Source of the DNA: Spirochaetales bacterium Spiro_03
GTDB lineage: Bacteria; Spirochaetota; Spirochaetia; Sphaerochaetales; Sphaerochaetaceae
Assembly: GCA_001603105.1 (NCBI GenBank)
Contig: LVBE01000119.1
Coordinates: 1-40,215, forward strand
Length of the DNA: 40,215 nucleotides
Direction of reading: 5' to 3'
Under the pieces are notes generated by a model that saw only the letters and a program-made list of their open reading frames with translations, was not told the origin of the DNA and searched no databases. Below are positions 1,199 to 25,820 of the stretch, piece after piece. How positions within the stretch are numbered: the stretch's first letter is position 1; each line of letters starts with the position of its first letter. The translations under genes and the position numbers were made by a program.

Positions 1199-1223
1199 GG
1201 TGGCCATGGTCCTCATGGCCACC
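1199..1223 (+). other. Intercistronic stem-loop GGTGGCCATG-GTCCT-CATGGCCACC between BMP gene and ABC ATPase gene
   Basis: 10-bp perfect inverted repeat with 5-nt loop in the 1188-1255 gap; no U-tract. Confidence 0.8.
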
Positions 1224-1254
1224 TGCCACCCTCGGTTACGGAGAGAACACCCTT

Positions 1255-2781
1255 ATGCACAAGATCACCAGCCTCAGGATGGAGCACATCACCAAACGCT
1301 TCCCCGGAACACTTGCCTGCGACGATATCACCCTCTCGGTGGGTGAGGGGGAGATCCTCGCCCTCGTCGGTGAGAACGGGGCGGGCAAGACCACCTTGAT
1401 GAACATCCTGATGGGACTCTACCAAAGCGATGAGGGGCGGATTCTCATCAACGGCGAGGAGGTTCGCTTCAAGAGCCCCAACGACGCCTTCAGTGCCGGA
1501 CTGGGAATGGTCCACCAACAGTATATGCTCGTCTCCAACATGACCGTGACCGAGAACATCGCCCTTGGGTACAAGGCGGCGTGGTCGGCTCTCAAGCTCG
1601 ACCTGGCCAAGGTCAGAGCCCGAATCGTGGAGATTTCCGACAAGTACGGCCTCGCCGTCGACCCCGATGCGTATATCTGGCAGCTCTCCGTCGGAGAGCA
1701 ACAGCGCGTCGAGCTGGTCAAGACCCTCTGTCTGGGCGCTCGTTTTTTGATCCTCGACGAGCCGACCAGTGCCCTCACTCCCCAGGAGACCGATGAGCTC
1801 ATCGTCCTGCTCAAGCGGATGAAGCGCGAGCTCTCCATCATCTTCATCAGTCACAAACTGCAGGAGGTGAAGAACCTCTGCGATAACCTCTTGATCCTCC
1901 GCCATGGGGCGGTGGTCTACGAAGGGAAGACCGCCGACCACTCGATGGCGGATATCGCCGCCCTGATGACCGGCCACGAGGTCGAGCTGCCGGTCAATGA
2001 AGAGGAGGCGTGTAGCGGCGCCGTTGTGCTGGACATCAGGGACCTTGATGTCAAAAGCGACCGTGGCTTCCTCGCCCTCGATGGCTTCAACCTCGCCGTC
2101 CGCTGTGGCGAGATCGTCGGCCTCGCCGGCGTCTCAGGCAACGGACAGCGAGAGCTCGCCGAGGCGATCAATGGCCTGAGGAGAGTCGAACGAGGCCAAA
2201 TCCTCTTCTATGGTGAGGATCTTGCCAACAAGAGCCCGCATCACATCATCGACAGCGGCATGGGCTACATCCCCGAAGAGCGCAACACCGAAGGAATCGT
2301 GCCCTCCTTCAGCCTGAAGGAGAACCTCATCCTCAAGGACACCGAGCGCGAAGAGTTCTCCAACCACCACTTCCTCAAGAACAAGGCCATCGAGGAAAAC
2401 GCCACCGAGCTCAGGGTCAAGTTCGATATCCGTAGCCCCAACACCTCGGTCGCCGCCGGATCTCTGTCAGGGGGCAATATCCAGAAGGTGATCCTCGCCC
2501 GCGAGATCAGTCGAAAGCCGAAGTTCCTCCTGGCAGTCTACCCCATCAGGGGCCTGGATCTCGGAGCGGCCGAGTTCATCCACAAACAGCTTCTGGAGAA
2601 GCGGCGCGAGGGGGTCGGGATCCTGCTCATCAGCGAGGAGCTTGACGAGATCCTCGATCTCTCCGACCGCGTCGCGGTGATCTTCAAGGGCAAGATCCAG
2701 CAGATCCTCGATCGCAAGGACGCAAACCGGCGTAAGCTCGGTATCTTGATGGCAGGAGTGGGCGATGACCAAGCACTTTAA
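1255..2781 (+). CDS. Nucleoside/sugar-type ABC transporter ATP-binding protein with two ABC domains
   Basis: Walker A GENGAGKTT, signature LSVGEQQRVEL, Walker B LILDEPTSALT; second domain signature LSGGNIQKV with IRGLD. Confidence 0.93.
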   Translation: MHKITSLRMEHITKRFPGTLACDDITLSVGEGEILALVGENGAGKTTLMNILMGLYQSDEGRILINGEEVRFKSPNDAFSAGLGMVHQQYMLVSNMTVTENIALGYKAAWSALKLDLAKVRARIVEISDKYGLAVDPDAYIWQLSVGEQQRVELVKTLCLGARFLILDEPTSALTPQETDELIVLLKRMKRELSIIFISHKLQEVKNLCDNLLILRHGAVVYEGKTADHSMADIAALMTGHEVELPVNEEEACSGAVVLDIRDLDVKSDRGFLALDGFNLAVRCGEIVGLAGVSGNGQRELAEAINGLRRVERGQILFYGEDLANKSPHHIIDSGMGYIPEERNTEGIVPSFSLKENLILKDTEREEFSNHHFLKNKAIEENATELRVKFDIRSPNTSVAAGSLSGGNIQKVILAREISRKPKFLLAVYPIRGLDLGAAEFIHKQLLEKRREGVGILLISEELDEILDLSDRVAVIFKGKIQQILDRKDANRRKLGILMAGVGDDQAL

Positions 2782-3871
2782 ACTTATCTACAAGATCACG
2801 ATCATCGCCCTGGCCATCGCAGCTGCGATGGGGGCCGGCTCGATCATCCTCCTGTCCATCGGAGCCGATGTGGCCAAGACCTACCTGGTCATCCTCCTTG
2901 AGCCGCTGAAGAGCACGCTGCAGATCAGCGAGGTACTGCTCAGGGCGATCCCGCTGTCGATCATCGCCTTGGGCATCAGCGTGGCGTACCGCAGCGGCAT
3001 CATCAACATCGGCGCCGAAGGACAGATGATGATGGGGATATTGGGCACTACGATGGTCGCCCTCTCTCTTCCGACGCTGCCCAAGGTCATCCTCATTCCC
3101 CTGGCCATCCTCACCGGAGCGCTCTTCGGTGGGGCGTGGGGTTTCATCGCAGGCATCCTCAGAGCAAAGCTACAGGTCAGTGAACTGCTCTCGACGGTCA
3201 TGCTCAACTACATCGCAGCGCAGTTCTACACCTTCATGCTGCGCGGCCCCTTCCTCGACCCGGCCGAAAAAACCCTCGGAGGAGCCGGCACTCCCCAGTC
3301 GATGCGCCTGACGCGCAACCTCTGGCTGACGCGCTTCATTCCCCGAACACGCCTGCACACCGGCCTCTTCATCGCCCTCGCCCTTGCTGCTTTCATCTAC
3401 TTTCTCTTGTGGAAGACAGACTTCGGCTACAAGATGCGTGCAAGCGGGGCAAGCGGCCGCGCTGCACGCTACGGGGGCATCAGCGTGGCGTGGTACCTGG
3501 TCGTCTCGATGGTCATCAGCGGCGCCTTTGCTGGCATCGCCGGCGCCATTGAGGTGGCGGGGGTGCACCGTCGCGCCCTTGAGGGCATCACCGCCGGCTA
3601 CGGCTTCAGCGGCATCGTCGTCGCCCTCTTCGGCGGCCTGTCGCCGATCGGCATCATCCCGGCCTCCTTCTTCTTCGGCCTCTTGATCGTCGGCTCCGAT
3701 ATGACCCAGCGTCTGGTCGGTGTTCCGGCGAATATGATCAACGTCCTGCAAGGCATCATCATCCTGGTCATCGTCGCCACGAAGATGATCCTCGCCGACC
3801 CCTACCTGGCCGAGCGCGTCTGGCGCTGGTACCAGAGGCGCTGTACCGTACGCGCGGAGGTGGAAGCATGA
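2765..3871 (+). CDS. ABC transporter permease, nucleoside (BPD_transp_2 type)
   Basis: Multi-TM; GIINIGAEGQMMMG motif; overlaps upstream CDS by 17 bp. Confidence 0.92.
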   Translation: MTKHFKLIYKITIIALAIAAAMGAGSIILLSIGADVAKTYLVILLEPLKSTLQISEVLLRAIPLSIIALGISVAYRSGIINIGAEGQMMMGILGTTMVALSLPTLPKVILIPLAILTGALFGGAWGFIAGILRAKLQVSELLSTVMLNYIAAQFYTFMLRGPFLDPAEKTLGGAGTPQSMRLTRNLWLTRFIPRTRLHTGLFIALALAAFIYFLLWKTDFGYKMRASGASGRAARYGGISVAWYLVVSMVISGAFAGIAGAIEVAGVHRRALEGITAGYGFSGIVVALFGGLSPIGIIPASFFFGLLIVGSDMTQRLVGVPANMINVLQGIIILVIVATKMILADPYLAERVWRWYQRRCTVRAEVEA

Positions 3872-4812
3872 ACACCGCTGTCAATATCCTGAGCCTCGGC
3901 ATCCCCTTCTCAGTAGCCCTTCTGATCGCAAGCCTCGGGGAGATGTTCAACCAGCGCAGCGGGGTCTTCAACCTCGGCTGCGAGGGCATCATGGCGATGG
4001 GCGCTTTCTTGGGCATGCTGGTGCCCTACTCCGTCGGCCATGGTGGACCGACCGCCGAGATCTACAATGTGCTCGGCCTCCTACTCGCCATGGGAGTGGG
4101 CGCTCTCTTTGGCACCCTCTTTGGCCTGGTCGTCGTCACCTTCCGCGCCCCGGAGGGCATCGCGGGCATCGGGCTGCAGATGTTCGGTGTCGGCGTTGCC
4201 GGCACGCTATTTCGCCACTTCATCGGTGGCACCCAGTCGGTCATCGGCATCGACCGCACCCCGATCCCGCTGCTGTCAGCGATCCCGATCATCGGCCCGA
4301 TCTTCTTCAGCCACAACGTGGTCGTCTACCTCGCCTTCCTCTTTGTCCCCCTGTCCTGGTACATCCTCTTCAAGACCCCATGGGGCCTACGCGTTCGTGC
4401 GGTGGGGACCAACCCACGGGCCGCTGACTCGATCGGCATCAACGTCAACAGGGTACGCTACCAGGCCCTCGCCGTCGGCGGCGCCCTTGCAGGCCTTGCC
4501 GGAGCGTACCTCTCGCTCTGCCAGGCAAAGATGTTCAGCGACGGCATCATCGCCGGCCGCGGCTTCATCGCCGTCGCCCTGGTCTACTTCGGCCACTGGC
4601 ACCCGGTGAAGATCATGGGAGGGGCGCTACTCTTCAGCCTCGCCCAGAGCCTGCAGCTGGCCATCCAGGGCCAGGGCATCGCCTTCCCCTATGAGTTCGC
4701 CGTAATGCTGCCCTACGTGCTGGTCATCGTCGTATTGGCCTTCAGCCGGGAGAGTCAGCTCTTGGGCCCCAGTGCGCTGGGCAAGCCCTTTAATCGGGAA
4801 AAACGGATTTAG
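3868..4812 (+). CDS. ABC transporter permease, nucleoside (BPD_transp_2 type)
   Basis: GVFNLGCEGIMAMGAF motif; ATGA overlap with upstream CDS. Confidence 0.92.
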   Translation: MNTAVNILSLGIPFSVALLIASLGEMFNQRSGVFNLGCEGIMAMGAFLGMLVPYSVGHGGPTAEIYNVLGLLLAMGVGALFGTLFGLVVVTFRAPEGIAGIGLQMFGVGVAGTLFRHFIGGTQSVIGIDRTPIPLLSAIPIIGPIFFSHNVVVYLAFLFVPLSWYILFKTPWGLRVRAVGTNPRAADSIGINVNRVRYQALAVGGALAGLAGAYLSLCQAKMFSDGIIAGRGFIAVALVYFGHWHPVKIMGGALLFSLAQSLQLAIQGQGIAFPYEFAVMLPYVLVIVVLAFSRESQLLGPSALGKPFNREKRI

Positions 4813-4904
4813 CCCTCTGGCTAAGCGCCTTCGATTGCAGTATCACAGACCGAGGCAGATCCTGCCGAGGCTAAGCGGCTGGCATATAGAGTAGAGAAGA
4901 AGCT

Positions 4905-7472
4905 ATGTATGCATTCAGCGTGAACGGAAACCCGATCGAGTATCATGGCCCTGACAAGAAGCTGCTCACGTTCCTGCGTGAGGAGCTCGCCCTCACCGGC
5001 ACCAAGGATGGGTGCAGTGAGGGGGCGTGCGGCACGTGCATGGTCATCATCGATGGCAAGAAGGTCAAGGCGTGTGCAGTTCGCCTCTCAAAGCTCCAAG
5101 GCAAGAGCGTGACCACCATCGAAGGCCTCAGCGCCCGGGAAGCTGAGGTCTACACCTGGGCCTTCGCAGTCGAGGGGGCTGTGCAGTGTGGCTTCTGTAC
5201 CCCCGGCATGGTCATCAGCGCCAAGGCCCTGATCGACCAAGAGCCAAACCCGACTATCCAGCAGGTCAAGGAAGCGATCAAGGGGAACATCTGCCGCTGT
5301 ACCGGCTACAAGAAGATCGAGCTGGCGATCTTGCGTGCCGCCCAGATGCTGCGCGAAGGCTTGCCTGTCCCACAGCAGAGCAATGACCTGGCTCTCGGCT
5401 CCCACTACCCACGCATCGACGCCGAGGCGAAGGTCCTCGGAACCGGCCTGTATACCGACGATATCCGCATCGATGGGATGCGCTATGCCAAGGCGATCCG
5501 CTCTGCCTATCCACGAGCCCGCGTCCTCTCCATCGACGGCAGCAAGGCAGAGGCGCACCCCCACTTCATCCGTCTCATCACCTCAGACCAGGTACCGCAC
5601 AACATCATCGGCCACCTCGTCCAAGATTGGCCGGTCCTCATCCCAGTCGGGGAGATCACCCGCTACACCGGCGATGCAATCGCCTTGGTGGTATCTTCCT
5701 CTCTTGACAGCCTCGATGAGATTGCGCACTTGGTGAGCATCACCTACGAGCCGCTGAAGCCGATGCTCACCATCGACGATGCCCTTGCCGATGGGGCACC
5801 AGCGATCCACAAAGGCGGCAATATCCTCAGCTACCAGCACATTAAGCGCGGTGACGTCGAAGAGGAGCTAGAGAAGAGCGCCCACGTCATCAGCCGCCAC
5901 TTCTCTACCCCCTTCACTGAGCACGCCTTCTTGGAGGTCGAGTGCGCTGTCGCCCTCCCTGACGGTGAGGGAGGGCTCTTGGTCCACACCAGCGGCCAGT
6001 CGATCTACGATGAGCAGCGTGAGATCTGCACGATGCTCGACCTGCCGCCACACAAGGTGCGCTGCCACTCGATGCTCGTCGGCGGAGGATTCGGTGGCAA
6101 GGAGGACATGAGCGTACAGCACCACGCAGCCTTGGCAGCGTATCTCTGCGACGAGCCGGTCAAAGTCAAGCTCAGCCGCCAGGAGTCGATCGCTGTCCAC
6201 CCCAAGCGCCACCCGATGGAGATCGACCTCACCGTCGGCTGTGACAAGGACGGACGGCTTACGGCGATGAAGGCATCGATCTACTCCAACACCGGCGCCT
6301 ACGCCTCCTTGGGAGGCCCGGTCCTCCAGAGAGCCTGCATCCACGCCTCCGGGCCTTACCGTATCCCCGCCTTCGAGAGCGAAGGGCGTGCGGTCTACAC
6401 CAACGTCGTGCCGGCCGGAGCGTTCCGAGGCTTTGGGGTGACGCAGAGCTGCTTTGCTATCGAGACGGTGATGAACCTGCTCGCCGATGCAGTCGGCATC
6501 GACCACTGGCAGATCCGCCGCCTCAATGCACTCAAAGCCGGCGATACGATCCCCAATGGCCAGATCGCCGGACCCGATACCGGCATCATCGAGTGCCTTG
6601 AGGCAGTCAAGGATGCGTTCTACGCATCTCCGACTGCCGGTATCGCCGCTGCGTTCAAGAACACCGGCCTCGGTGGAGGCTACCCGGATACCGGACGCTG
6701 TATCCTCTCAGTCGAAGGAGGGATGGTCCACATACGCACCAGCGCCGCCTGCATGGGTCAGGGTGTGGCCACTGTCTGCATGCAGATGGTCGGCGAAAGC
6801 TGCGGCCTCAGAAGCGACCAGATTGTCGTCGAGGAGCCCGATACCGCCCGTACCCCGGACAGCGGCACCTCAACGGCGAGCCGACAGACCCTCTTCACCG
6901 GTGAGGCGGTGCGCCGGGCGTCACTGAAGCTCAAGGAGGCGTTGGCCACTCGGACATTGGACGAGCTTGAGGGGATGGAGTTCGACGGCGAATACATTGG
7001 AGAGACCGATGTCTTTGGCAGTACCAAAGAGCACCCGGTCAGCCACGTCGCCTATAGCTATAGCGCCCAGGTCGCTACCCTTGACGACGATAGGCGGGTA
7101 GCGAAGATCGTCGCCGCCTGTGACGTCGGGCAGGTGGTGAACTACCAGAGCCTCACCGGCCAGGTCGAGGGCGGAGTTGCCATGGGGATGGGCTACGCCC
7201 TCACCGAACACTTCCCTATCGACGAGGAGGGCAATCCGGCAGTCAAGTTCGCCACCCTCGGCCTGCTGAAGGCAACCGAGGTACCCCCGATCGAGGTCAA
7301 GGTCGTCCAAGGACCTGAACGCCACCCCATCGCCTATGGGGCAAAAGGGGTCGGCGAGCTAACCACCTTGGCTACCGCCCCAGCGATTGCGGCAGCGTAC
7401 TATCGCACCGACTTCATCGAGCGCAACTCACTGCCGTTGAAACAAACACCGTATGAACGGAAAAAGGGCTAG
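4905..7472 (+). CDS. Molybdopterin-dependent xanthine dehydrogenase-type hydroxylase with fused N-terminal 2Fe-2S domain; resembles the selenium-dependent XDH family
   Basis: CSEGACGTC and CGFCTPGM...NICRCTGYKKI Fe-S motifs; GGGFGGKEDMS, GAFRGFG, GAKGVGELT Moco-domain motifs; no FAD domain. Confidence 0.88.
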   Translation: MYAFSVNGNPIEYHGPDKKLLTFLREELALTGTKDGCSEGACGTCMVIIDGKKVKACAVRLSKLQGKSVTTIEGLSAREAEVYTWAFAVEGAVQCGFCTPGMVISAKALIDQEPNPTIQQVKEAIKGNICRCTGYKKIELAILRAAQMLREGLPVPQQSNDLALGSHYPRIDAEAKVLGTGLYTDDIRIDGMRYAKAIRSAYPRARVLSIDGSKAEAHPHFIRLITSDQVPHNIIGHLVQDWPVLIPVGEITRYTGDAIALVVSSSLDSLDEIAHLVSITYEPLKPMLTIDDALADGAPAIHKGGNILSYQHIKRGDVEEELEKSAHVISRHFSTPFTEHAFLEVECAVALPDGEGGLLVHTSGQSIYDEQREICTMLDLPPHKVRCHSMLVGGGFGGKEDMSVQHHAALAAYLCDEPVKVKLSRQESIAVHPKRHPMEIDLTVGCDKDGRLTAMKASIYSNTGAYASLGGPVLQRACIHASGPYRIPAFESEGRAVYTNVVPAGAFRGFGVTQSCFAIETVMNLLADAVGIDHWQIRRLNALKAGDTIPNGQIAGPDTGIIECLEAVKDAFYASPTAGIAAAFKNTGLGGGYPDTGRCILSVEGGMVHIRTSAACMGQGVATVCMQMVGESCGLRSDQIVVEEPDTARTPDSGTSTASRQTLFTGEAVRRASLKLKEALATRTLDELEGMEFDGEYIGETDVFGSTKEHPVSHVAYSYSAQVATLDDDRRVAKIVAACDVGQVVNYQSLTGQVEGGVAMGMGYALTEHFPIDEEGNPAVKFATLGLLKATEVPPIEVKVVQGPERHPIAYGAKGVGELTTLATAPAIAAAYYRTDFIERNSLPLKQTPYERKKG

Positions 7473-7779
7473 GTAGGGCGCTCGCGGAAAAACCGCTTGG
7501 GCATGAAGGTGAGAACGTATAGGATGAGGCAACTCGACCACCTCCTGCATCGAAGGCGATGGGTTCTCATGGACTTTGGCTTCGATCAAGATCAATGTAT
7601 CGACATCTCTGACAAGAATCGCCAATGAGGCCCTTGTCATACACCGCGAACAGAGGAAAGCTCATGCAATCCATACCCCGCAAGCCATGGTGCGATAGAC
7701 TCCTCAATTGTTAATCTTACACTATTACACTTTTTGTTATTGTGTTATATTAAGCCTATCCTTTGCTTTGGAGGTGCCT

Positions 7780-9201
7780 ATGACGCACACTACCCTCCCT
7801 TCACTGCTCACATACTTCAAGGAAACTGTCCAACAGACCAATATCCACCTCTCAGTCAAAAAGAGCATCGACCGGCTGCTCGCATCAACCCCATCATGGC
7901 CGGCACTGACAATCGGCGATCTGGTGGCCCCCACCCCGATCATCCAGGGGGGAATGGGTGTTGGGATCTCCCTCAGCGGCCTTGCCAGCGCTGTCGCCAA
8001 TGCCGGGGGCATCGGGGTCATTGCAGCCAATGGCATCGGGCTCATGGAGAAGGGCTACTTCCAAGATGGGCAGGCCGCCAATATCCGAGCTCTTCGTAGC
8101 GAGATCAAAAAGGCGCGCTCCCTGACCGATGGGATCATCGGGGTGAACATCATGGTGGCCATCAGTGACTTTGACCAGTTCCTTGCCGTCTGCATCGAAG
8201 AGCGGGTCGACCTGATCTTCCTTGGAGCCGGGCTTCCGATCAAGGGGATGCCGGTTACGCAGCTGCGTGAGGCGAACATCAAGGTCGTTCCGATCGTCAG
8301 CAGCGCCCGCGCCGCCTCGATGATCTTTCGCATGTGGGAGAAGCTGTACAACGATATCCCCGACGCCATTGTCGTCGAGGGGCCGAAGGCAGGCGGCCAC
8401 CTAGGCTTCACTGCCGAGCAGCTCGACGATCCTGCCTACCAGATCGAACGCCTTGTGGTCGAGGTCGTGGACGCCCTTAGGCCATTTGAGTCGAGTCGGG
8501 GCTCTGCCATCCCGGTCATCGCAGCCGGTGGCGTGTACAGCGGAGCGGATATCCACCGCCTCCTCTGTCTTGGCGCTTCGGCGGTGCAGATGGGCACCCG
8601 CTTTGTCGCCACAAAGGAGTGCGATGCCGACATTCACTTCAAAGAGGCGTACATCAAGGCACGCAAAGAGGATATCGGCCTCATCGACAGTCCGGTTGGG
8701 ATGATCGGCAGGGCAATCCGCAATCGTTTCATCACCGACAGCGAAGCGGGTCTACGCCCGGCCTTTCGCTGTGCCTATCAGTGCCTCTCTTCGTGCAAGG
8801 CCCAAGAGGCTCACTACTGCATCTCAATTGCGCTGAACAACGCCCGTAAAGGGACCATGGAGAGCGGCTTTGTCTTCGCCGGAACCAATGCCTACCGCAT
8901 CAAGCGCATCGTAGCAGTAGCAGACTTGGTCGATGAGCTACTAGTCGGGTACCAGCGGGCTGCGCTTGGGCGCCTTACCCGACTTTTGAGGCGCTTTGAG
9001 CGCCTGAAGGCCGACTACGCCACCATCGAGGCACAGGTCGCCTCCCTCGCCTCAGTCTACGAGGAACTGATCTTACGATCGCTGCCTGAGCAGGCAAAGC
9101 GCGCGAAGGCGCACTATCGTCGCGCTTGCCTGGGCCTAGAGCGGATCCGCCTCGCTCTCGGAGAGACCATCGCCCAGGGTGCGGCGCTGATGAAGGCCTA
9201 A
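7780..9201 (+). CDS. Nitronate monooxygenase / FabK-like flavoprotein with long C-terminal extension
   Basis: PTPIIQGGMGVGISLSGLASAVANAGGIGVIA, GPKAGGHLGF, IPVIAAGGVYSGADIHRLLCLGASAVQMGTRFVATKECDA; start moved to ATG 7780 (GGAGGTGCCTATG). Confidence 0.87.
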   Translation: MTHTTLPSLLTYFKETVQQTNIHLSVKKSIDRLLASTPSWPALTIGDLVAPTPIIQGGMGVGISLSGLASAVANAGGIGVIAANGIGLMEKGYFQDGQAANIRALRSEIKKARSLTDGIIGVNIMVAISDFDQFLAVCIEERVDLIFLGAGLPIKGMPVTQLREANIKVVPIVSSARAASMIFRMWEKLYNDIPDAIVVEGPKAGGHLGFTAEQLDDPAYQIERLVVEVVDALRPFESSRGSAIPVIAAGGVYSGADIHRLLCLGASAVQMGTRFVATKECDADIHFKEAYIKARKEDIGLIDSPVGMIGRAIRNRFITDSEAGLRPAFRCAYQCLSSCKAQEAHYCISIALNNARKGTMESGFVFAGTNAYRIKRIVAVADLVDELLVGYQRAALGRLTRLLRRFERLKADYATIEAQVASLASVYEELILRSLPEQAKRAKAHYRRACLGLERIRLALGETIAQGAALMKA

Positions 9202-9569
9202 AGCAGACGGACCGATCCTTTGTAGATCTCAGTGGCGTGCAGCACGGCAGCTGCATGGCCTGGGTATTTGGGCGGGGTGACTTCTTTCATGAAGGCATAG
9301 AAGGGGCCGGAAGTGTGGTAGCTCAGCCTCCCCTTGAGTTGGTAGCTCACCCCGTCTTTGGTGATGAAGAGCACCGCCCCTATGCCGGTGGCCAGGATAT
9401 TGGCCCGCGTCTTGTCAAAGTAGTTGTCGGCGATGACGATATGCTCATCGCTGTACAACCCTGAGCTGATGACCCACACGCTGTTGGGCTTTCCGCTCTC
9501 GTCTACAGTGGTCAACACGAATGCCATCTCGCGCATCGCCCAGGCATCGATGATCTCTTGTGGTAGCAT
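9198..9569 (-). CDS. Pyridoxamine 5'-phosphate oxidase-like FMN-binding protein
   Basis: MAFVLTTVDESGKPNSVWVISSG...HIVIADNYFDKTRANILATGIGAVLFI; AAGGAGT SD before ATG 9569. Confidence 0.75.
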   Translation of the reverse strand: MLPQEIIDAWAMREMAFVLTTVDESGKPNSVWVISSGLYSDEHIVIADNYFDKTRANILATGIGAVLFITKDGVSYQLKGRLSYHTSGPFYAFMKEVTPPKYPGHAAAVLHATEIYKGSVRLL

Positions 9570-9643
9570 AGACACTCCTTATGCCCGCTATGATACACCT
9601 CATCGCTCTGGTGCGCCAATGTCTGTGAGCGGTTTTGACCAGA

Positions 9644-9678
9644 TAAAAAACATGCTTCCAGGAGTTCTCCTGGAAGCA
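9644..9678 (-). terminator. Rho-independent terminator of the TRAP operon
   Basis: 11-bp perfect stem TGCTTCCAGGA/TCCTGGAAGCA, 4-nt loop, followed on the minus strand by TGTTTTTT; downstream of the dctM-like stop. Confidence 0.9.
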
Positions 9679-9706
9679 GAGGAAGGGAGTGTGAATATGC
9701 GAAATC

Positions 9707-11002
9707 TTACATCATGACCTTGGGCAGCCACAGCGTCATGGCCGGTATGAAGGTCACCAAGAGCAGGTCCATGACCATCACGACATAGAAGGGCAGCACC
9801 GCCTTGGTCGCTGTCTCGATGGAGATCTTTCCGATCGAGCAGCCGACAAAGAGCGCCGACCCTACCGGCGGGGTGGTCAGGCCGATGGCCAAGTTGAGGA
9901 TCAACATCACACCGAACTGGATCGGGTCCATGCCCAGATACCCCACCACGACCGGGTAGAGGATCGGGGTGGTGATGATGATCAGGGGGGCCATGTCCAT
10001 GACGGTACCGAGGACCAAGAGCATGAGGTTGATCAACAGGATCAAGGCGATCTTGTTCTCGGTGATCGTCAACAGGCCGTTGGTCACCGCCTGCGGGATT
10101 CTCAGGTAAGCCATCAGGTAGCCGAAGGAGGAGGCTGCTGCGATCAGGCTCATCACCATCGCCAGTGTCCTCAGTGAGTTGGAGAGGATCGGCCACATCT
10201 GCTTGACCGGGATCTCCCGGTAGACGAAGAAGGTGATGACGAAGGCATAGACAGCGGCTACCGCTGCAGACTCAGTTGCAGTGAAGACTCCGCTGATGAC
10301 CCCTCCCATGATGATGATGATCGTAAAGAGGCCGAAGAACGCATCGCGGGCGAGCAAAAGACTCTTCTTCCATCCATACGGTTTCTGCTTGGGGTAGCCG
10401 CGCTTGTAGGCGAGGATCGCGGTGGGAATCATCAAAAAGAGCCCCAGCCCGACACCGGGGATCAGGCCACCGAGGAAGAGCTTGCCTACCGACACACCGC
10501 CACCGGCTGCCATCGCGAAGATGATCATGTTGTGGCTCGGCGGGATCAGGACCCCCTGACAGGCGCTGGTGACGGTGACGGCGACAGAGAAGTCGGCGTC
10601 GTAGCCATCATCGACCATCATCGGGATCAACATCGCACCGATGGAGCTGACGTCAGCGACCGCCGACCCGCTGATGCCACCGAAGAACATCGAGGCGAGG
10701 ATGTTCACCTGGGCAAGGCCGCCACGCACCCATCCAATGAGGGCGTTTGCAAAGCCGACCAGGCGGCGCGAGATTCCTCCCTGGCTCATGATCTCACCGC
10801 TGAGGATGAAGAACGGGATCGCCAAGAGGCTGAAGGAGTTCACGCCACTGACCAGACGCTGCACGATCGACATGAGCGGAATATGCAGGTATATCGCCGT
10901 GAAGATCGAGGAGATAAAGAGGCTGAAGGTGATCGGGAACTTGAGCAGCATCAAGCCGACAAAGGAGCCGATCAAAATGAACGTACCCATCTGCGCATTC
11001 AT
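9707..11002 (-). CDS. dctM: TRAP transporter large permease (DctM family)
   Basis: Multi-TM; MSQGGISRRLVGFANALIGWVRGGLAQVNILASMFFGGISGSAVADVSSIGAMLIP. Confidence 0.95.
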   Translation of the reverse strand: MNAQMGTFILIGSFVGLMLLKFPITFSLFISSIFTAIYLHIPLMSIVQRLVSGVNSFSLLAIPFFILSGEIMSQGGISRRLVGFANALIGWVRGGLAQVNILASMFFGGISGSAVADVSSIGAMLIPMMVDDGYDADFSVAVTVTSACQGVLIPPSHNMIIFAMAAGGGVSVGKLFLGGLIPGVGLGLFLMIPTAILAYKRGYPKQKPYGWKKSLLLARDAFFGLFTIIIIMGGVISGVFTATESAAVAAVYAFVITFFVYREIPVKQMWPILSNSLRTLAMVMSLIAAASSFGYLMAYLRIPQAVTNGLLTITENKIALILLINLMLLVLGTVMDMAPLIIITTPILYPVVVGYLGMDPIQFGVMLILNLAIGLTTPPVGSALFVGCSIGKISIETATKAVLPFYVVMVMDLLLVTFIPAMTLWLPKVMM

Positions 11003-11493
11003 GCAGCACCTCCTCGTTTGTGGAATTTCTTCAAGTCTTCATAGAAGTAGAGAGCGGCATAGAGGATGATGAAGATACCGACGATCGGCAGGACCAGGTA
11101 GTTCACCGAGTTGGGGATATGGGTCGCCGGCAGCCGGCTCTTATGACCGTTGACGGTCAGCCTCCATCCATAGATGACCAAGATTGAGCCGAGGAAGACC
11201 TGCAACCCATTCTTCAAGAGGTCGAGGACGACAAAAAAGTTGTATCCGAGCTTCCGGGGAAGCAGGGAGATGTTGATATGCAGGTTCTCCTTGACACCGA
11301 GGGCCATGGAGATGAATGTAAACCAAATGACAATGACCAGGCTCATCTCTTCGGCCCATCGAATCCCGGATTTGAATCCGTATCGCAGCACTACGTTGGT
11401 GAAGACGATGATCACCATCGCCACCAAGAGCACCATAGCCAACTTGAGAACCCAGGAAAAAACGGAGTCCAGTATCGTCTTGAACCGCTCCAT
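10999..11493 (-). CDS. dctQ: TRAP transporter small permease (DctQ family)
   Basis: RWAEEMSLVIVIWFTFISMALGVKENLHINI; start set at ATG 11493 with GGAGG SD; overlaps dctM start. Confidence 0.92.
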   Translation of the reverse strand: MERFKTILDSVFSWVLKLAMVLLVAMVIIVFTNVVLRYGFKSGIRWAEEMSLVIVIWFTFISMALGVKENLHINISLLPRKLGYNFFVVLDLLKNGLQVFLGSILVIYGWRLTVNGHKSRLPATHIPNSVNYLVLPIVGIFIILYAALYFYEDLKKFHKRGGAA

Positions 11494-11511
11494 GGGGTAC
11501 CTCCACAAAAA

Positions 11512-11553
11512 GTTGTGAACACAACGATGTGGGACCTTTGGGCCCCACATCGT
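11512..11553 (-). other. Tandem intercistronic stem-loops between dctP and dctQ, the second followed by UUUUU
   Basis: ACGATGTGGG/CCCACATCGT 10-bp stem (11524-11533 with 11544-11553) and GTTGTG/CACAAC (11512-11525) followed on the minus strand by CTTTTTG. Confidence 0.75.
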
Positions 11554-11568
11554 AGATACAGTGCGCCC

Positions 11569-12567
11569 TTACTTCACCGCCTTGATCTTCTCGACCCAGC
11601 TCTTCTGCTCGGCATTGAGCATCGACTGGTAGAGCGGAGCCATGGCAGCGGCAAACTCGGCCTGGTCGTTGATCGTGTTGATCTTCGAGCCAGCGGCGCG
11701 GACCTTTGCCTCACTGACTTTCTCGAAGTCAGCCCAGCTCTTGATCTGGACGGCCTGGCTCTCGCGAGCTGCGCGCTTGATGATCGCCTGATCCTCGGCG
11801 CTGAGCTTGTCCATCGTGATCTTGCTGGCAATGATCATCTCAGGAACACGGGTGTGCTCATCGATGGAGAGGAACTTGGCTACTTCGTAGTGGCTGGAGG
11901 TGTCGTACGAGGGCCAGTTGTTCTCTGCCCCGTCGATGACGCCGGTCTGCAGTGCGCTGTAGACGTCGCCGTATGCCATCGGGGTGGGGACAGCGCCGAG
12001 GGCCTGGACAAGACCCATCATCAGGCTGGACTCCTGGACACGGATCTTCATTCCCTTCATGTCAGCGACCGTGTAGATCGGCTTCTTGGTGGTGTAGAAG
12101 TTACGAGCCCCACTGTCGTAGTAGACAAGGCCGACGAAGCCCTTCGCTGTCATCGAGTTGAGGAAGTAGTCGCCGATCTCGCCGTTGAGGACCTTCCACA
12201 TGTGGTCGGCATCGCGGTAGAGGTACGGCATCTGCAGAGCATTGAGCAGCGGCTGGAAGTCGCTGAGCGGGGAGATGGAGACACGGGTGAAGTCGATGCC
12301 ACCGAACTGGACCTGCTCGATCGCGCTCTTCTCATCTCCGAGCTGCCCCTGGGGGTACACCTCGACCTTGATACGGCCGTTGGTGTACTCGCCTACGCGG
12401 CGGGCGAAGTCCTCATCACCGACGACGGTGGGGTACCCGATGGGCTGGTTGTCAGCGAGGCGCAGAACGATCGGCTTTGCGCTAGCCCCTTTCTCCTGGC
12501 CACCCTGTGCAAACGCCACACCGGCGAGCAGGGTAACCACCAACAGCGTTACTAGTACTTTCTTCAT
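11569..12567 (-). CDS. dctP: TRAP transporter solute-binding protein (DctP family)
   Basis: MKKVLVTLLVVTLLAGVAFAQ signal peptide; FKLADNQP-like start, MKGMKIRVQESSLMMGLVQALGAVPTPMAYGDVYSALQTGVIDGAENN motif. Confidence 0.95.
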   Translation of the reverse strand: MKKVLVTLLVVTLLAGVAFAQGGQEKGASAKPIVLRLADNQPIGYPTVVGDEDFARRVGEYTNGRIKVEVYPQGQLGDEKSAIEQVQFGGIDFTRVSISPLSDFQPLLNALQMPYLYRDADHMWKVLNGEIGDYFLNSMTAKGFVGLVYYDSGARNFYTTKKPIYTVADMKGMKIRVQESSLMMGLVQALGAVPTPMAYGDVYSALQTGVIDGAENNWPSYDTSSHYEVAKFLSIDEHTRVPEMIIASKITMDKLSAEDQAIIKRAARESQAVQIKSWADFEKVSEAKVRAAGSKINTINDQAEFAAAMAPLYQSMLNAEQKSWVEKIKAVK

Positions 12568-12569
12568 AG

Positions 12570-12598
12570 GTTCCTCCTTAAGGAACAATAATGTTGTT
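12570..12598 (-). promoter_or_regulatory. Two mutually exclusive short hairpins overlapping the dctP Shine-Dalgarno region
   Basis: GTTCC/GGAAC (12570-74/12582-86) encloses AGGAGG; AACAA/TTGTT (12584-88/12594-98) shares bases with it. Confidence 0.4.
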
Positions 12599-12708
12599 TC
12601 TCCTACAGTATGGATGACCGCTGTCTCTCAAGGTAGTCGGAATAATGGGAAAAACTGAGCGAATTTTCTCCTTTTCTGCTACTCTACCCCGAGTATCAAT
12701 ACATAGCG

Positions 12709-14268
12709 ATGACGATCAATTGCCTTGAAAACCCCATCTCTCTACGATATTGTTGGCCTATGGGTACAGCGGCTAAGCGACAGCGGGGAACATTACAGGG
12801 GTGGCTCCTCTCCTACAACCTGGGCATGCTCATCATCATCCTCGCCTCTGTCATCATCCTCTTTGGCCTATTGTTCACCCTGCTGGCCCAAATGCAGAGC
12901 AGAAACTCCCAGTACGAGGCGATCAACACCCTCAGCCGCCAGATCAGCCAACACCGCCTTCTTTTCACCCAGATCATAGGCGAGGATGATCCGCTTGCCG
13001 CCTCGTCTCTGAACGAGGAGCTTGAGATCCTCAACCATGACCTACGCATCACCCTCCACCGCCTCGCTGTCGACTATGAGAGCGACAGTAGCCGATACTT
13101 CATCCAAAAAGGAATCGCCAACGGCCTACAGTTCATCGCAGAGAGCCTAGAAGCTCTGCTGTCCATGGAGGACCGGCAGAGTCCTGAGTACTTCAGTCGC
13201 TTTTATGCCACCGACAAGGTCTATACATACCTGCAGGAGTATACCGTCAACCGCTACCTTCCCCTGATCGTCAGAGCCGACATCGCCTGGATCCTCACCA
13301 CCGAGCACAAGATCCTCAACTACCGGGCCATCACGATTTTGCTCTTCGTCCTGATCGCCATCACATACACCATCGCCACCTATGAGATGACCATGCGCCT
13401 GGTGCGCCCGGTCGATACAATGGTGCAGAGCGCCCGCCAGATCATCAACGGCCACTTCGATGGGCCTGAGATCCCAATCGAAGGGCCGGTTGAGCTGCAG
13501 TACCTGGAGCAGTCGATGAACCAGATGCGCGAAAGCCTACGCGAGCGCATGGAGATGATCGAGGAGAACGCCCAGCTGGAAAAGCGGATCCACCGCCAGG
13601 AGGTCGAGCGCATAAGAACGACGCGGGAGCTTGAGAAGGCGCGCTACAACGCCCTGCAAAGTCAGATTAATCCCCACTTTCTCTTCAACACCCTCAATGT
13701 CATCAGCCGCACCGCGCTCTTTGAGGGTGCCGACGCCACCGTCGACCTCTTGGACACCCTCGCCTCGATCTTTCGCTACACACTGCAGCACCACGACGAT
13801 GTCACCCTCGCCGAAGAGCTGCTCTTTGTGCGTAAGTACCTGACCATCCAGCAGTACCGCTTCAAGGAGCGCCTCACCTTCTCAGTCGAATGCCCACCCC
13901 AGCTCAGTGACCTGCGAATCCCGCCGCTGGTGGTCCAACCGTTCGTCGAAAACGCGATGATTCACGGTCTTGAGCCAAAGGTCGAGGGCGGCAGTGTGAC
14001 GATCGCTGTCGCCGAGGTGGCCAAGAGCGTGGTCATCACCATAACCGATACCGGGGTAGGGATCGACCTTGAGCAGCTAGGTCGAGCTCAGAAGGAGGGC
14101 AAGCAGCACATCGGCATCAAGAATATCACCGACCGGCTCAATCTCTACTACAAAGGCAAGGCTCAGGTCGATATCGGTCGCGTCAATGAGGCGGGGGGCA
14201 CGACGGTGACCATCACCCTGCCCTACCGAAGCGGAGGAAAGAAGAGTGTACACCCTACTGATCGCTGA
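12709..14268 (+). CDS. YesM-type sensor histidine kinase (HAMP plus His_kinase)
   Basis: Two TMs, HAMP-like linker, LQSQINPHFLFNTLNVISR, VVQPFVENAMIHGLEP, DTGVGI; alternative ATG at 12760. Confidence 0.92.
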   Translation: MTINCLENPISLRYCWPMGTAAKRQRGTLQGWLLSYNLGMLIIILASVIILFGLLFTLLAQMQSRNSQYEAINTLSRQISQHRLLFTQIIGEDDPLAASSLNEELEILNHDLRITLHRLAVDYESDSSRYFIQKGIANGLQFIAESLEALLSMEDRQSPEYFSRFYATDKVYTYLQEYTVNRYLPLIVRADIAWILTTEHKILNYRAITILLFVLIAITYTIATYEMTMRLVRPVDTMVQSARQIINGHFDGPEIPIEGPVELQYLEQSMNQMRESLRERMEMIEENAQLEKRIHRQEVERIRTTRELEKARYNALQSQINPHFLFNTLNVISRTALFEGADATVDLLDTLASIFRYTLQHHDDVTLAEELLFVRKYLTIQQYRFKERLTFSVECPPQLSDLRIPPLVVQPFVENAMIHGLEPKVEGGSVTIAVAEVAKSVVITITDTGVGIDLEQLGRAQKEGKQHIGIKNITDRLNLYYKGKAQVDIGRVNEAGGTTVTITLPYRSGGKKSVHPTDR

Positions 14269-15709
14269 CGACGAACCGCTGGAGTGCGATGCCATCGAGC
14301 TGTTGGTTCGTCGTGCCCGCCTGCCGCTGAGGATCATCAAGGCAAAGAACGGCGTTGAGGCGGTCGCATTGACCGACCAGCACAAGCCCGAGATCGTCTT
14401 TTTGGATATCCGCATGCCCGGCATGGATGGCATCGAGGCTGCCCGCATGATCCGTGAGCACCACGATGAGTGCCAGATCGTCTTCCTCACTGCCTGGTCT
14501 ACCTTCGAGTTCGCCCAGCAGGCGATCCGCCTCAATGCCAGCGAGTACCTAGTCAAGCCGGTGCAAGCCAAGGAGGTTTATGACCTGCTCGACCGCCTGA
14601 TCACAAACCTCGATCAGCGTCGCCAGGATGAGCAGGAGCACAGTGACCAGATGCGCCAGGTACTGAAGGTCTTCAGCCGTGAGTTCTTCGCAGCGCTGAA
14701 GTACGGGCGGGTGAGTTCTGAAGCGATGGAGAACTTTTTTGCGGTCCAAGGGATCCGTGACCGCCAGGGCGTTGCGCTGGTCATCAAGGGCCTTGACAGC
14801 GAAGCGCTCAAGCGCGTGCTGAGGCCACTACGCGCCCAGGCGTGTTACTTCCCCTCCCCCGACCGCACCACCGTCCTGCTCTTTACCACCCAGGAGGCCA
14901 AGCTGATCGAGCAACTACCGCGCGAGGATGGTGGGGCGATCGCCATCGGCAGCGGTGTTCCCTTCACATCACTGCAACAGATTCCCAACGCCATCGCCAC
15001 CGCCTCAATCGCCTTCAACTGGGCCCAGCAACACCACCTGGGCCTCCAACGCTACAGCCAGGTCCTCCTTCAGCCCCTAGAGCAGGTCCACACCCACACC
15101 CTCATGACCCAGATGGTGGCCCACACCCTTAGTGGCGATGGTGAGAAGGCGCGCACCATCGCCCACCAGATCATCGACACCCTCCTGTCGGCACAAGAAG
15201 AAGATGAGGCAGCCCAGGACCTAGGCGAGCTGGTCAGTCTCTTTGCCTGGGAGATCACCAAGGCCATCGCCCTCTTGGCGGTCGGCAAGGTGCCCAAGGA
15301 GAGTGTGATGGAACTTGAGATATTCTTGATGGACCTCATCGACCTGGCAAGCCAGGCAGTCCTCATCGACCGCCGAGACCGCTATGAGCGCCCCTTTGCC
15401 TTCGTCAGGCAGTACATCGATGAGCACCTGAACCTCTCCCTCTCCGTTGAAGAGGTCTCAAATCTGGTAGGCATCAACGCCAAGTACTTTTCAAAGCTCT
15501 GCAAGAGTTACCTCGGCTCGACGTTTGTCGAGTACGTCAACACCAAGAAGATGGAGAAGGCTCGACTCCTTCTTGACGAGGGGGCCACTACCGTCAAGGA
15601 GGTAGCTGAGGCAACGGGATTTTCCGATACCAACTACTTCAGCCGCCTCTTTCGCCAACACTGGGGCATCTCCCCCTCTTCGCTCAAGGATCAACCAACA
15701 GACTCCTGA
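14246..15709 (+). CDS. YesN-type response regulator with AraC-type HTH
   Basis: Receiver domain LIADDEPL...VFLDIRMPGMDG...LVKPV; C-terminal AraC HTH (VKEVAEATGFSDTNYFSRLFRQHWGISPS); GTG start overlapping the kinase. Confidence 0.93.
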   Translation: MYTLLIADDEPLECDAIELLVRRARLPLRIIKAKNGVEAVALTDQHKPEIVFLDIRMPGMDGIEAARMIREHHDECQIVFLTAWSTFEFAQQAIRLNASEYLVKPVQAKEVYDLLDRLITNLDQRRQDEQEHSDQMRQVLKVFSREFFAALKYGRVSSEAMENFFAVQGIRDRQGVALVIKGLDSEALKRVLRPLRAQACYFPSPDRTTVLLFTTQEAKLIEQLPREDGGAIAIGSGVPFTSLQQIPNAIATASIAFNWAQQHHLGLQRYSQVLLQPLEQVHTHTLMTQMVAHTLSGDGEKARTIAHQIIDTLLSAQEEDEAAQDLGELVSLFAWEITKAIALLAVGKVPKESVMELEIFLMDLIDLASQAVLIDRRDRYERPFAFVRQYIDEHLNLSLSVEEVSNLVGINAKYFSKLCKSYLGSTFVEYVNTKKMEKARLLLDEGATTVKEVAEATGFSDTNYFSRLFRQHWGISPSSLKDQPTDS

Positions 15710-16490
15710 TGAGCCGACTCTCATGGACCGAGGCAACCACTTCGCTGAGCACGGTAGGGTTGTGAATCAACGGTCCGTCGTAGTGGATGGCATCAAGACC
15801 GCGTCGCACCGCCGTCCAGTCGATCGTCCCCTCGCCGACCCGCCCCTGGTTGCTGTCACGCACATGGACCGTCTTCACATAGACTCCGGCTTGTACGATC
15901 GCCGCCTCGATACTCGCTTCCTCCTTTGCCATGTGGTAGGTATCGAGGTCGAGGCTGACCGAGCTGTGGTTGACTGCCTGCACGCACGCCAAGGCACGCT
16001 CGACGGTGGGGATGAGGAAGTGCTCATCAGATGCGATCGGCTTGATGTTCAGTAGCACATCTTCATCTTCGGCGACAACAGCCAATGCCCTCAATGACTT
16101 GACCAGTTGGCCCAGTAGGCGCTCACGATCCCCGCTGAGCTCCCATCTGGGAGGAAAGGGAGCGTAAAAGGCGCCGTTGAGTACCCCTCCGCCCATCTGC
16201 CCGATCGTCTTGATGAGCGTGCCCAGGTGGGCGGTCGCGTCGCGACGCGCTGTCTCATCGAGGGAGGCGAGGTCGGTTGTCTGGTCACTAGTCCATCCAT
16301 AGCTGAGGTAGATGCGGTGGGTACGTGCCTCAAAGCCGATACGAGTACGGGTGAGGATCGAGCTCTCCATGAGCGCGCGTGCATCGAGTTCCACCTGGTC
16401 GTAGCCGAGCTCACGAGCCCAGGCGATGAAGAGCGAGGCATCGTAGGGGTGGTACGCCCACCGTTTGTAGTGAACGCCAACGCTTCTCAT
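15684..16490 (-). CDS. Sugar phosphate isomerase/epimerase, xylose isomerase-like TIM barrel
   Basis: VNHSSVSLDLDTYHMAKEEASIEAAIVQAGVYVKTVHVRDSNQGRVGEGTIDW. Confidence 0.82.
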   Translation of the reverse strand: MRSVGVHYKRWAYHPYDASLFIAWARELGYDQVELDARALMESSILTRTRIGFEARTHRIYLSYGWTSDQTTDLASLDETARRDATAHLGTLIKTIGQMGGGVLNGAFYAPFPPRWELSGDRERLLGQLVKSLRALAVVAEDEDVLLNIKPIASDEHFLIPTVERALACVQAVNHSSVSLDLDTYHMAKEEASIEAAIVQAGVYVKTVHVRDSNQGRVGEGTIDWTAVRRGLDAIHYDGPLIHNPTVLSEVVASVHESRLIRSLLVDP

Positions 16491-16534
16491 GACGCCGTTC
16501 CTACCTCGATGGTAGCAGAGCAGGGACAGGGGCG

Positions 16535-17350
16535 CTAGCCTTTCACTGCCCCGGTAGTCAGACCCTTGATCACGTACTTCTGGAAGAACATCGTCAACAC
16601 GATCGCCGGTGCCATGATCACCACCGCAGCGGCCATGACCGCCCCCCAGTCAACCTCGACGTAGGAGAGGAAGTTGTAGACTGCGATGGGCAGAGTGCGG
16701 GTCTTCTGTTGGCTGAGGACCTGGCTGAACATGAAGTTGTTCCAGCTGAAGATGAACGAGAGGGTTGTCGCCGTCACTACCCCCGGCCCACTCAGAGGCA
16801 GGAGAATCTTCAAAAAGGCTGCCTGCTGGGTCAGGCCATCGACCATGCCGGCCTCTTCAAGTTCCCGAGGCACAGCGTCGAAGTACGGGCTCATGACCCA
16901 GACGACAAGCGGCAAGGCGATGAGCATGTGGCTGAGGATCAGGGCGATGTAGCTGTCCATCAGGTGCAGACGGCTGAAGACGATGTACCAGGGCATCAGA
17001 AAGGAGATGCCGGGCATCAGGCGGGCGACGAGGATGAAGATAGAGAGCTTCTTTTGCTTGTAGCGGGCGATCGAATAGGCTGCGGGCAGGCCGAGGATCA
17101 GTGACAGCGCCACCGCTGACACCGAGACAATCACCGAGTTCTTCATGTAGTGGAGGAAGTCCTGTTCGATGAAGACGCGCTGGTAGTTGCGCATCACCGG
17201 ATTGAAGATGAAACGCGGCGGCCAGCTGATGATGTCGACCTGGGTCTTGAAGGAACTCATCAGCATCCACACAAAGGGAAAGAGGATCGGGATGACGATG
17301 AGGATGATGACAAGGTAGAAGAGGGCCGTGTTGAGGGTTCTTTTGTTCAT
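16535..17350 (-). CDS. Carbohydrate ABC transporter permease (MalG type)
   Basis: EEAGMVDGLTQQAAFLKILLPLSGPGVVTA EAA loop; TM profile. Confidence 0.94.
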   Translation of the reverse strand: MNKRTLNTALFYLVIILIVIPILFPFVWMLMSSFKTQVDIISWPPRFIFNPVMRNYQRVFIEQDFLHYMKNSVIVSVSAVALSLILGLPAAYSIARYKQKKLSIFILVARLMPGISFLMPWYIVFSRLHLMDSYIALILSHMLIALPLVVWVMSPYFDAVPRELEEAGMVDGLTQQAAFLKILLPLSGPGVVTATTLSFIFSWNNFMFSQVLSQQKTRTLPIAVYNFLSYVEVDWGAVMAAAVVIMAPAIVLTMFFQKYVIKGLTTGAVKG

Positions 17351-17359
17351 CGACTCCCC

Positions 17360-18238
17360 CTACATCTCAAAGGCGCGTCTGAGGCGCATCACGACGAGGC
17401 TGAATGCCATCACGATGACAAAGAGGAAGACGAGCATGACGGCGCTCTGTCCCATGCGGAAGTACTCGAAGCTGTACTTGAAGGCCAACACGTTGAGGTT
17501 CTCACTGGCGTAGCCAGGACCTCCTCTGGTCATCGAGTAGATGATATCGTACGTCTTGAGGGCATCGATGGCCCTCAGTATCACAGCGGTGAGGATGGTG
17601 GGCATCAACATCGGCAGCGTGATGCGAAAGAGGACCTGGCGACTATTGGCCCCATCGACCATCGCCGACTCATACGGTTCGGTCGACAAGCCGGCAAGAC
17701 CGGCGAGGACGATGATCGTGATCATCGGTGTCCACTGCCAGATGTCGACGATGATCAGTGAGGGCATGACGGTTTTTGCGTCACTGACCCATCCACTTTG
17801 CGGCAGCCCCAAGACGCTGAGCACGTAATTGAGAATGCCGATCGTCGGATCATAGAAGAGGTTGAAGACAATGCCGATGGCAACCGGTGTTGCGACCAGT
17901 GGCAGGAGCAGTAGCGTCTTCATCAGATTCTTGCCGGCAAACGATCGGTGCAGGACCAGAGCCAAGGCAGTGCCGAGGACCATCTCGGCGATGACGGCGG
18001 CGAACGTAAAGTAGAAGGTCCGTCCTAACGCCTCGATAAAGCGTGGCTCCTTCAGGACCTGGATGTAGCTTGCCAAGCGGACGACCGCCAACGGCCTACC
18101 GCTGGTCAACGTCCAGTTGGTGAAGGAGAGGAAGAAGGTATACCCTACCGGAAAGACCATCAGCACCACCACAAAGATCACCGCGGGCAGCGGGAAGAGG
18201 AAGCGGAGGTTCTTTTCAACAAAGCCTTGGCGGATCAT
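17360..18238 (-). CDS. Carbohydrate ABC transporter permease (MalF type)
   Basis: YESAMVDGANSRQVLFRITLPMLMPTILTA EAA loop; TM profile. Confidence 0.94.
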   Translation of the reverse strand: MIRQGFVEKNLRFLFPLPAVIFVVVLMVFPVGYTFFLSFTNWTLTSGRPLAVVRLASYIQVLKEPRFIEALGRTFYFTFAAVIAEMVLGTALALVLHRSFAGKNLMKTLLLLPLVATPVAIGIVFNLFYDPTIGILNYVLSVLGLPQSGWVSDAKTVMPSLIIVDIWQWTPMITIIVLAGLAGLSTEPYESAMVDGANSRQVLFRITLPMLMPTILTAVILRAIDALKTYDIIYSMTRGGPGYASENLNVLAFKYSFEYFRMGQSAVMLVFLFVIVMAFSLVVMRLRRAFEM

Positions 18239-18259
18239 GGTGATCTCCTTGGAGCACGG

Positions 18260-18285
18260 CTGGCCGACCGCAATCGGTCGGCCAG
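18260..18285 (-). other. Intercistronic stem-loop CTGGCCGACCG-N4-CGGTCGGCCAG between sugar SBP gene and permease gene
   Basis: 11-bp perfect inverted repeat with 4-nt loop in the 18238-18302 gap; no U-tract. Confidence 0.85.
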
Positions 18286-25298: not shown

Positions 25299-25820
25299 AT
25301 GGCCCAAGACGTACGGATCATCACCACCGGCGGGACCTTCGACAAGCAATACGATGCCATCAGCGGAGAGCTGACGTTCAGAGAGAGCCAGCTGCCGCGA
25401 ATCCTCGGCCAGGCCCGCTGTACCCTGACGGTCCACCTCGAAGGGCCGCTTGCCGTCGACAGCCTCTATATGACCGAAGAGCAGCGCCAGGAGATCGCCA
25501 ACGCCTGCCTCCATAGTGCAGAGGACCGTATTGTCATCATCCACGGCACGGACACCATGTGCAACACAGCCGCGGTCATCGCCCGCACCCTTGCATCCGA
25601 GCATACCAAGACCGTGGTCCTCACCGGTGCGATGATCCCCTACTCCCTTGAGGGATCGGATGCGATCTTCAACCTCGGCTGTGCCATCTCAGCTGTCCAA
25701 CTCCTCCCTGCCGGTGTCTTTTTGACAATGAGCGGAAGGATTTTCTCGTGGGACAACTGCCGCAAGAACAAAGAGAAAGGAATCTTTGAACCGATCGACT
25801 CTGCTCGGTTGGCCTATTGA
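25299..25820 (+). CDS. Single-domain asparaginase-like protein (asparaginase N-terminal domain only)
   Basis: RIITTGGTFDKQYD; IIHGTDTMCNTAAVIAR; VVLTGAMIPYSLEGSDAIFNLG; only 173 aa. Confidence 0.82.
   Translation: MAQDVRIITTGGTFDKQYDAISGELTFRESQLPRILGQARCTLTVHLEGPLAVDSLYMTEEQRQEIANACLHSAEDRIVIIHGTDTMCNTAAVIARTLASEHTKTVVLTGAMIPYSLEGSDAIFNLGCAISAVQLLPAGVFLTMSGRIFSWDNCRKNKEKGIFEPIDSARLAY

Follow-up and report, generated by a model that had tools for sequence, protein, structure and literature searches.

Three transporter operons with hairpins after their SBP genes

The window, the whole stretch of 40,215 nucleotides analysed here, carries three transporter operons in which the gene for the solute-binding protein (SBP) is followed by a perfect stem-loop. 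On the plus strand, the gene for a BMP/PnrA-like SBP of an ABC transporter (157..1188; PF02608, E 1.7e-38) is followed by hairpin 1 (1199..1223, plus strand), which has a 10-bp perfect stem, a 5-nt loop, a folding energy of -18.7 kcal/mol and a tail, TGCCACCCTCGG, without a U-tract. The gene calls place the ABC ATPase gene of the transporter at 1255..2781 on the same strand, and after it lie two permease genes (2765-3871 and 3868-4812) with overlapping ends (gaps of -17 and -4). The TRAP operon lies on the minus strand and comprises the SBP gene dctP (11569..12567, start from the gene caller; PF03480, E 1.5e-83), hairpin 2 (11524..11553), the 10-bp perfect stem of which extends to 13 pairs (-23.3 kcal/mol) with weak U content on its 3' side (TGTGTTCAC), dctQ (10999..11493; PF04290) and dctM (9707-11002; PF06808), the latter overlapped by dctQ. 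The operon ends in a terminator-like hairpin of 11 bp (9653..9678, minus strand) that runs into TGTTTTTTAT. The longest reading frame of dctQ starts at 11550 and would set hairpin 2 partly within the gene; a start at 11493 stands behind a GGAGG ribosome site and is the better one, so the dctQ start was reset and hairpin 2 is intergenic. Also on the minus strand, a sugar-type SBP gene (SBP_bac_1, 18302..19573; PF01547, E 1.3e-45) precedes hairpin 3 (18260..18285; 11-bp perfect stem, 4-nt loop, -22.6 kcal/mol, no U-tract), a BPD_transp_1 permease gene (17360..18238; PF00528) and a second permease gene (16535-17350), which by gap measurement lies 9 nt past the first.

An earlier note on this DNA had reported perfect stem-loops with arms of 10, 10 and 11 bp at these positions, at the same site in three transporter classes (BMP-ABC, TRAP and sugar ABC), and we confirmed both the coordinates and, by Pfam, the flanking genes. 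Its remark that the remaining short same-strand gaps of the window have nothing comparable holds as well: the best hairpin in the other tandem gaps of less than 100 nt reaches -7.9 kcal/mol, versus -18.7, -23.3 and -22.6 kcal/mol after the SBP genes. The window has six distinct perfect stems of 10 bp or longer that close a loop of 3-12, namely the three SBP hairpins, the post-dctM terminator and two intragenic stems; among eight dinucleotide shuffles of the window, six contained none and the other two contained one and two, respectively. The folding z-scores of SBP gaps 1, 2 and 3 were -1.8, -3.1 and -4.5, and with z = -1.8 the gap of hairpin 1 is marginal by energy if taken alone. The Rfam 15 scan of the window returned no match at the gathering score.

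Two further genes of the window were recorded. The gene at 4905-7472, after the BMP transporter and on the same strand, encodes a xanthine dehydrogenase-type [2Fe-2S]/molybdopterin fusion protein, and this neighbour suggests a purine or nucleoside as the substrate of the transporter. The 173-aa ORF at 25299-25820 has an asparaginase N-terminal domain as its only domain; the gene may thus be truncated.

Enrichment of hairpins in SBP gaps of four genomes

The sample comprised 743 kb of the window's draft genome and, for each of three closed genomes from its genus, a further 400 kb. Genes were taken from a home-made gene caller, SBP genes were identified by profiles of six families combined with a hydrophobic N-terminus filter, and hairpins are thermodynamic predictions, termed strong at dG <= -12 kcal/mol and at least 7 bp in gaps of 40-130 nt. 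The earlier note had named the comparison of SBP gaps with other gaps as one that might refute it, and its observation stood up to it. In these sampled, SBP-rich stretches a strong hairpin was predicted in 83 of 91 SBP-to-next-gene gaps, whereas among the other same-strand gaps 63 of 247 had one (odds ratio 30, p 4e-29). The enrichment was present in each of the four genomes, with 29/31 SBP gaps versus 24/101 others in the window's own genome. When same-strand gaps of 40-80 nt were considered, z-scores below -2 were found for 88% of the SBP-to-transporter gaps (n=48) and 17% of the other-gene gaps (n=100), and perfect stems of at least 10 bp for 54% and 4%, respectively.

Pfam scans of 20 hairpin-bearing "others" showed that ten of these genes encode SBPs that had escaped the initial identification: members of Bmp, DctP and SBP_bac_1/8, some of them cut by contig ends, one NMT1-like protein and two TctC proteins. 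Among the matches listed for the 108 hairpin-free "others", no such SBP family had two or more members. Moving the ten genes changes the counts to 93/101 SBP gaps versus 53/237 others; as the hairpin-free genes received a less complete check, the first counts are nevertheless the unbiased ones. The hairpin-bearing SBP families are SBP_bac_1, DctP, Peripla_BP_4, Bmp, SBP_bac_3 and SBP_bac_5, and also NMT1 and TctC. SBP genes lacking a hairpin exist, mostly at gaps of less than 40 nt.

That the hairpins are due to chance, or are a general feature of intergenic gaps in these genomes, has practically no probability left. Hairpins are indeed found at longer gaps and operon ends too, but the odds ratio of 30 in the four genomes is length-limited and shuffled sequence yields few such stems. 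We rejected this explanation on the SBP-gap enrichment, which persisted after the reclassification.

At L273:821-904, after an SBP_bac_3 gene, we observed a 15-bp perfect A/T-rich stem (ATAATTATGCACGCA); the other hairpins of the window's own genome are GC-rich.

Distribution among spirochaetes

The window's BMP protein is 93% identical to that of Spirochaetales bacterium Spiro_04 and 76% identical to that of S. halotolerans, and by such named BMP matches the window's genome is in or next to Sphaerochaeta. From named genome contigs we obtained 78 BMP loci whose gap is 30 nt or longer; nearly all bear a spirochaete label, and three that of Synergistetes or Synergistaceae. A strong hairpin lies within 85 nt of the stop codon in 67 of these. 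Sugar-SBP orthologues in three relatives keep the core of the hairpin 3 stem, also without a U-tract, and a hairpin is likewise present at most SBP loci that we inspected in the other families of this class. The spread over Spirochaetales and the frequency relative to other gaps thus bear out the earlier proposal of a lineage-wide device at the SBP/permease boundary; a role of this device in setting SBP:permease stoichiometry, through stabilisation as at the malE REP, is putative.

The loci in the MAGs labelled Synergistaceae or Synergistetes (L292, L293, L295) encode BMP orthologues 69-76% identical, with hairpin and U-tract, and may reflect gene transfer or mis-binned contigs. Furthermore, an inverted repeat, long and imperfect, recurs after the BMP gene in termite-gut Treponema MAGs (L319, L321, L323, L338 and L342, and L334 in part). 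It reads GTATGAAG..CCTTT...AAGG..CTTCATAC, is unlike the hairpins of other lineages and may be a dispersed or clade-specific element.

Selection on RNA structure

In the four-genome sample, the arms of non-orthologous hairpins are as unlike as shuffled sequence (similarity 0.348 versus 0.343), in keeping with the earlier view that these are not a dispersed REP family; no related dispersed palindromes of the REP type were found. The malE-malF intercistronic region, a REP region according to the earlier note, differs in this respect, as the arms here are unrelated between operons. Among orthologue pairs with a hairpin in either member, both members had one in 122 of 127, with a median arm identity of 0.59. 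Stems diverged half as fast as their flanks (0.116 versus 0.239, in pairs that are uncorrected for phylogeny and not independent).

Pairwise covariation over all orthologues amounted to 24 two-sided changes versus 14 expected. As this excess is only modest, we take the BMP family as the basis for covariation, in which 6 of 12 stem pairs are altered on both sides. The covariation check proposed in the earlier note was positive for the BMP stem, with a score of 0.266 versus 0.116 for shuffled and at most 0.082 for slid alignments. Pair counts were made on alignment A3; the MAFFT alignment A4 was left out, its 5' arm being mis-registered between clades.

Folding both strands of whole gaps showed the transcribed strand to be more stable in 63 cases and the other strand in 14, and the 8 UUCG loops were all on the sense strand. 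The sense-strand bias and the UUCG loops therefore favour an RNA element over a DNA site. Protein-binding DNA palindromes or REP-like mobile repeats would account for perfect inverted repeats at a fixed place, yet the shuffled-like dissimilarity of the arms between operons and the better folding of the transcribed strand, with UUCG loops 8 to 0, make them very improbable. Selection acts on RNA structure, as seen from the unrelated sequences, the conservation, the BMP covariation and the sense-strand folding. The earlier note had likewise proposed convergent selection on structure and not on sequence, with which orthologue conservation, covariation and strand asymmetry agree.

Proposed function of the hairpins

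The SBP hairpins start at a median of 13.5 nt past the stop codon, with median values of 12 bp, a 4-nt loop and -21 kcal/mol, and their ends lie at a median of 24 nt from the next start. Downstream translocator genes mostly abut or overlap (median gap -1). The place of the hairpins between both genes would also fit translation control, in which the hairpin hides the permease ribosome site or blocks ribosome read-through. However, with a median of 24 nt to the next start the ribosome site is mostly outside the stem, and only 12 of 96 hairpins end within 12 nt of the next start; masking of the permease ribosome site is therefore not the usual mode, and we regard translation control as improbable.

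The predicted structure, position, SBP specificity, conservation, covariation and strand bias of the hairpins are shown here by the sequence analysis. From position, conservation and precedent we infer an effect on expression, and its division between termination and decay likewise. It is quite probable that these intercistronic 3'-end hairpins increase SBP mRNA relative to permease mRNA, whether through leaky termination, through decay protection or through the two together. The hairpin, placed some 14 nt past the stop codon with about 24 nt left to the following start, would serve the SBP message as a 3'-end element in RNA form. Part of the transcripts would terminate there or be shortened to that point by trimming, and 3'-to-5' exonucleases would be blocked by the hairpin. 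The remaining transcripts would read through to the permease genes, the ribosome site of which would be outside the hairpin. SBP mRNA would consequently exceed the translocator mRNA of the same operon, probably via both routes.

U-tails, scored with a gentle stem trim and a background control, had median scores of 2.26 for operon-end hairpins, 1.76 for SBP hairpins and 1.17 for background. The SBP tails exceed the background (p 4e-8), but T is raised on both sides of SBP stems (0.39 and 0.42), so the intermediate U-tail is not clean evidence of termination. Hairpins 1, 2 and 3 of the window scored 0.93, 1.91 and 0.72, and the BMP orthologue median was 3.69. At least 6 T in the 9 positions after the stem were found in 75% of the hairpin-bearing BMP orthologues, for example GCATGACTGCTTTTTTTT in Sphaerochaeta relatives; most BMP orthologues thus combine hairpin and U-tract and would resemble a leaky intrinsic terminator. 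The BMP stem of the window's clade has diverged in sequence, and neither the window nor L284 has a U-tract. The TRAP operon shows the contrast within one transcription unit, with a U-poor hairpin after dctP versus a canonical terminator with TGTTTTTTAT after dctM.

Leaky intrinsic terminators alone, ending a fixed fraction of transcripts after the SBP gene at the level of transcription, are conceivable, though we would not expect them to be the whole explanation. The U-tracts of the BMP orthologues and the SBP tails above background are what such terminators would have, and in Clostridia stem-loops with poor U-tracts still terminate 21-96% of transcripts (PMC9045158). Against this, two of the three window tails are at background level, the sugar-SBP orthologues retain the stem without a U-tract, and the terminator-pattern scan of the window listed the operon-end hairpin after dctM and none of the three SBP hairpins.

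Decay barriers alone, of the malE-malF type, would involve a downstream cut and a hairpin that stops exonucleases and leaves a stable SBP mRNA, with no termination. The strong stems and weak U-tracts in the window, the presence of genes for PNPase and RNase Y in the genus, where four genomes were searched, and the E. coli precedent (PMC5927463) are in line with this. On the other hand, most BMP orthologues have U-tracts at the same place, and RNase E/G was not found in the four genomes searched (G000, G001, G002, G005), which leaves decay barriers alone a doubtful explanation. With the enzyme of the malE model, RNase E, not found there, the cleavage step would need another enzyme. Within the favoured combination of termination and decay protection, the latter probably plays the larger part at the three window loci, because the U-tract is absent or weak there.

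Comparison with known systems

The arrangement is less novel than the earlier note suggests, as both mechanisms have already been published for SBP genes (PMC9045158, PMC5927463). In Clostridia, stem-loops after the SBP genes of ABC importers, including those with poor U-tracts, end 21 to 96% of transcripts and lower downstream transcripts, as determined with reporters and Northern blots in Gram-positives; 191 SBP-downstream stem-loops were predicted in eight species and at least 15 were noted in E. coli (PMC9045158). As here, these clostridial terminators are single stem-loops after SBP genes with long stems and unrelated sequences; their U-tracts are poor or graded. A stable stem-loop in the SBP-to-next-gene gap, as in the clostridial cases, is found in the three window gaps and in 83 of the 91 sampled gaps. 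They differ in being experimental, Gram-positive and limited to ABC transporters, whereas those described here are predicted, belong to spirochaetes and extend to TRAP and TctC-type transporters; moreover, two of the window hairpins have no U-tract at all.

In the E. coli ABC operons regulated by decay, the SBP is invariably the stabilised segment, the stable part being shielded by 3' hairpins (PMC5927463). That source, citing 1987 work, describes for malE-malF a stable hairpin 3' of the SBP gene with the SBP message favoured over the channel genes, as proposed here. A stable SBP-3' hairpin without a terminator U-tract, as in malE-malF, is present at all three window loci, the tail of hairpin 2 being weak and not absent. 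The malE-malF model uses RNase E (PMC5927463), in contrast to the four genomes here, in which RNase E/G was not found. According to work cited in the same source, the puf operon of Rhodobacter capsulatus also has an intercistronic hairpin, a decay barrier for the upstream cistrons, but this is a single photosynthesis case and carries no transporter-wide rule (PMC5927463).

The position rule and both mechanisms (malE-malF and the clostridial SBP terminators) are thus already known. Our literature search, largely without subscription papers, found no report of SBP hairpins in TRAP operons or in spirochaetes. Relative to that literature, what is new is the occurrence in spirochaetes, its near-universal frequency there and the inclusion of TRAP and TctC-type (TTT) transporters. 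A bolder reading, less likely than not, is a near-obligatory, sequence-independent hairpin rule over the mechanistically unrelated ABC, TRAP and TTT importers in Spirochaetales, which in part of the lineage might take the form of a U-tract-less decay barrier without RNase E. If the proposed effect on expression is real, the hairpin favouring SBP over permease would be a solution reached convergently in different importer classes and phyla, and one predictable from sequence. The approximately 100 natural hairpins with graded U-tracts would allow leaky termination to be separated from decay protection. Furthermore, being near-universal, the hairpin is a useful marker of SBP genes in draft spirochaete genomes, and several hairpin-bearing genes missed by the first pass did prove to be SBPs.
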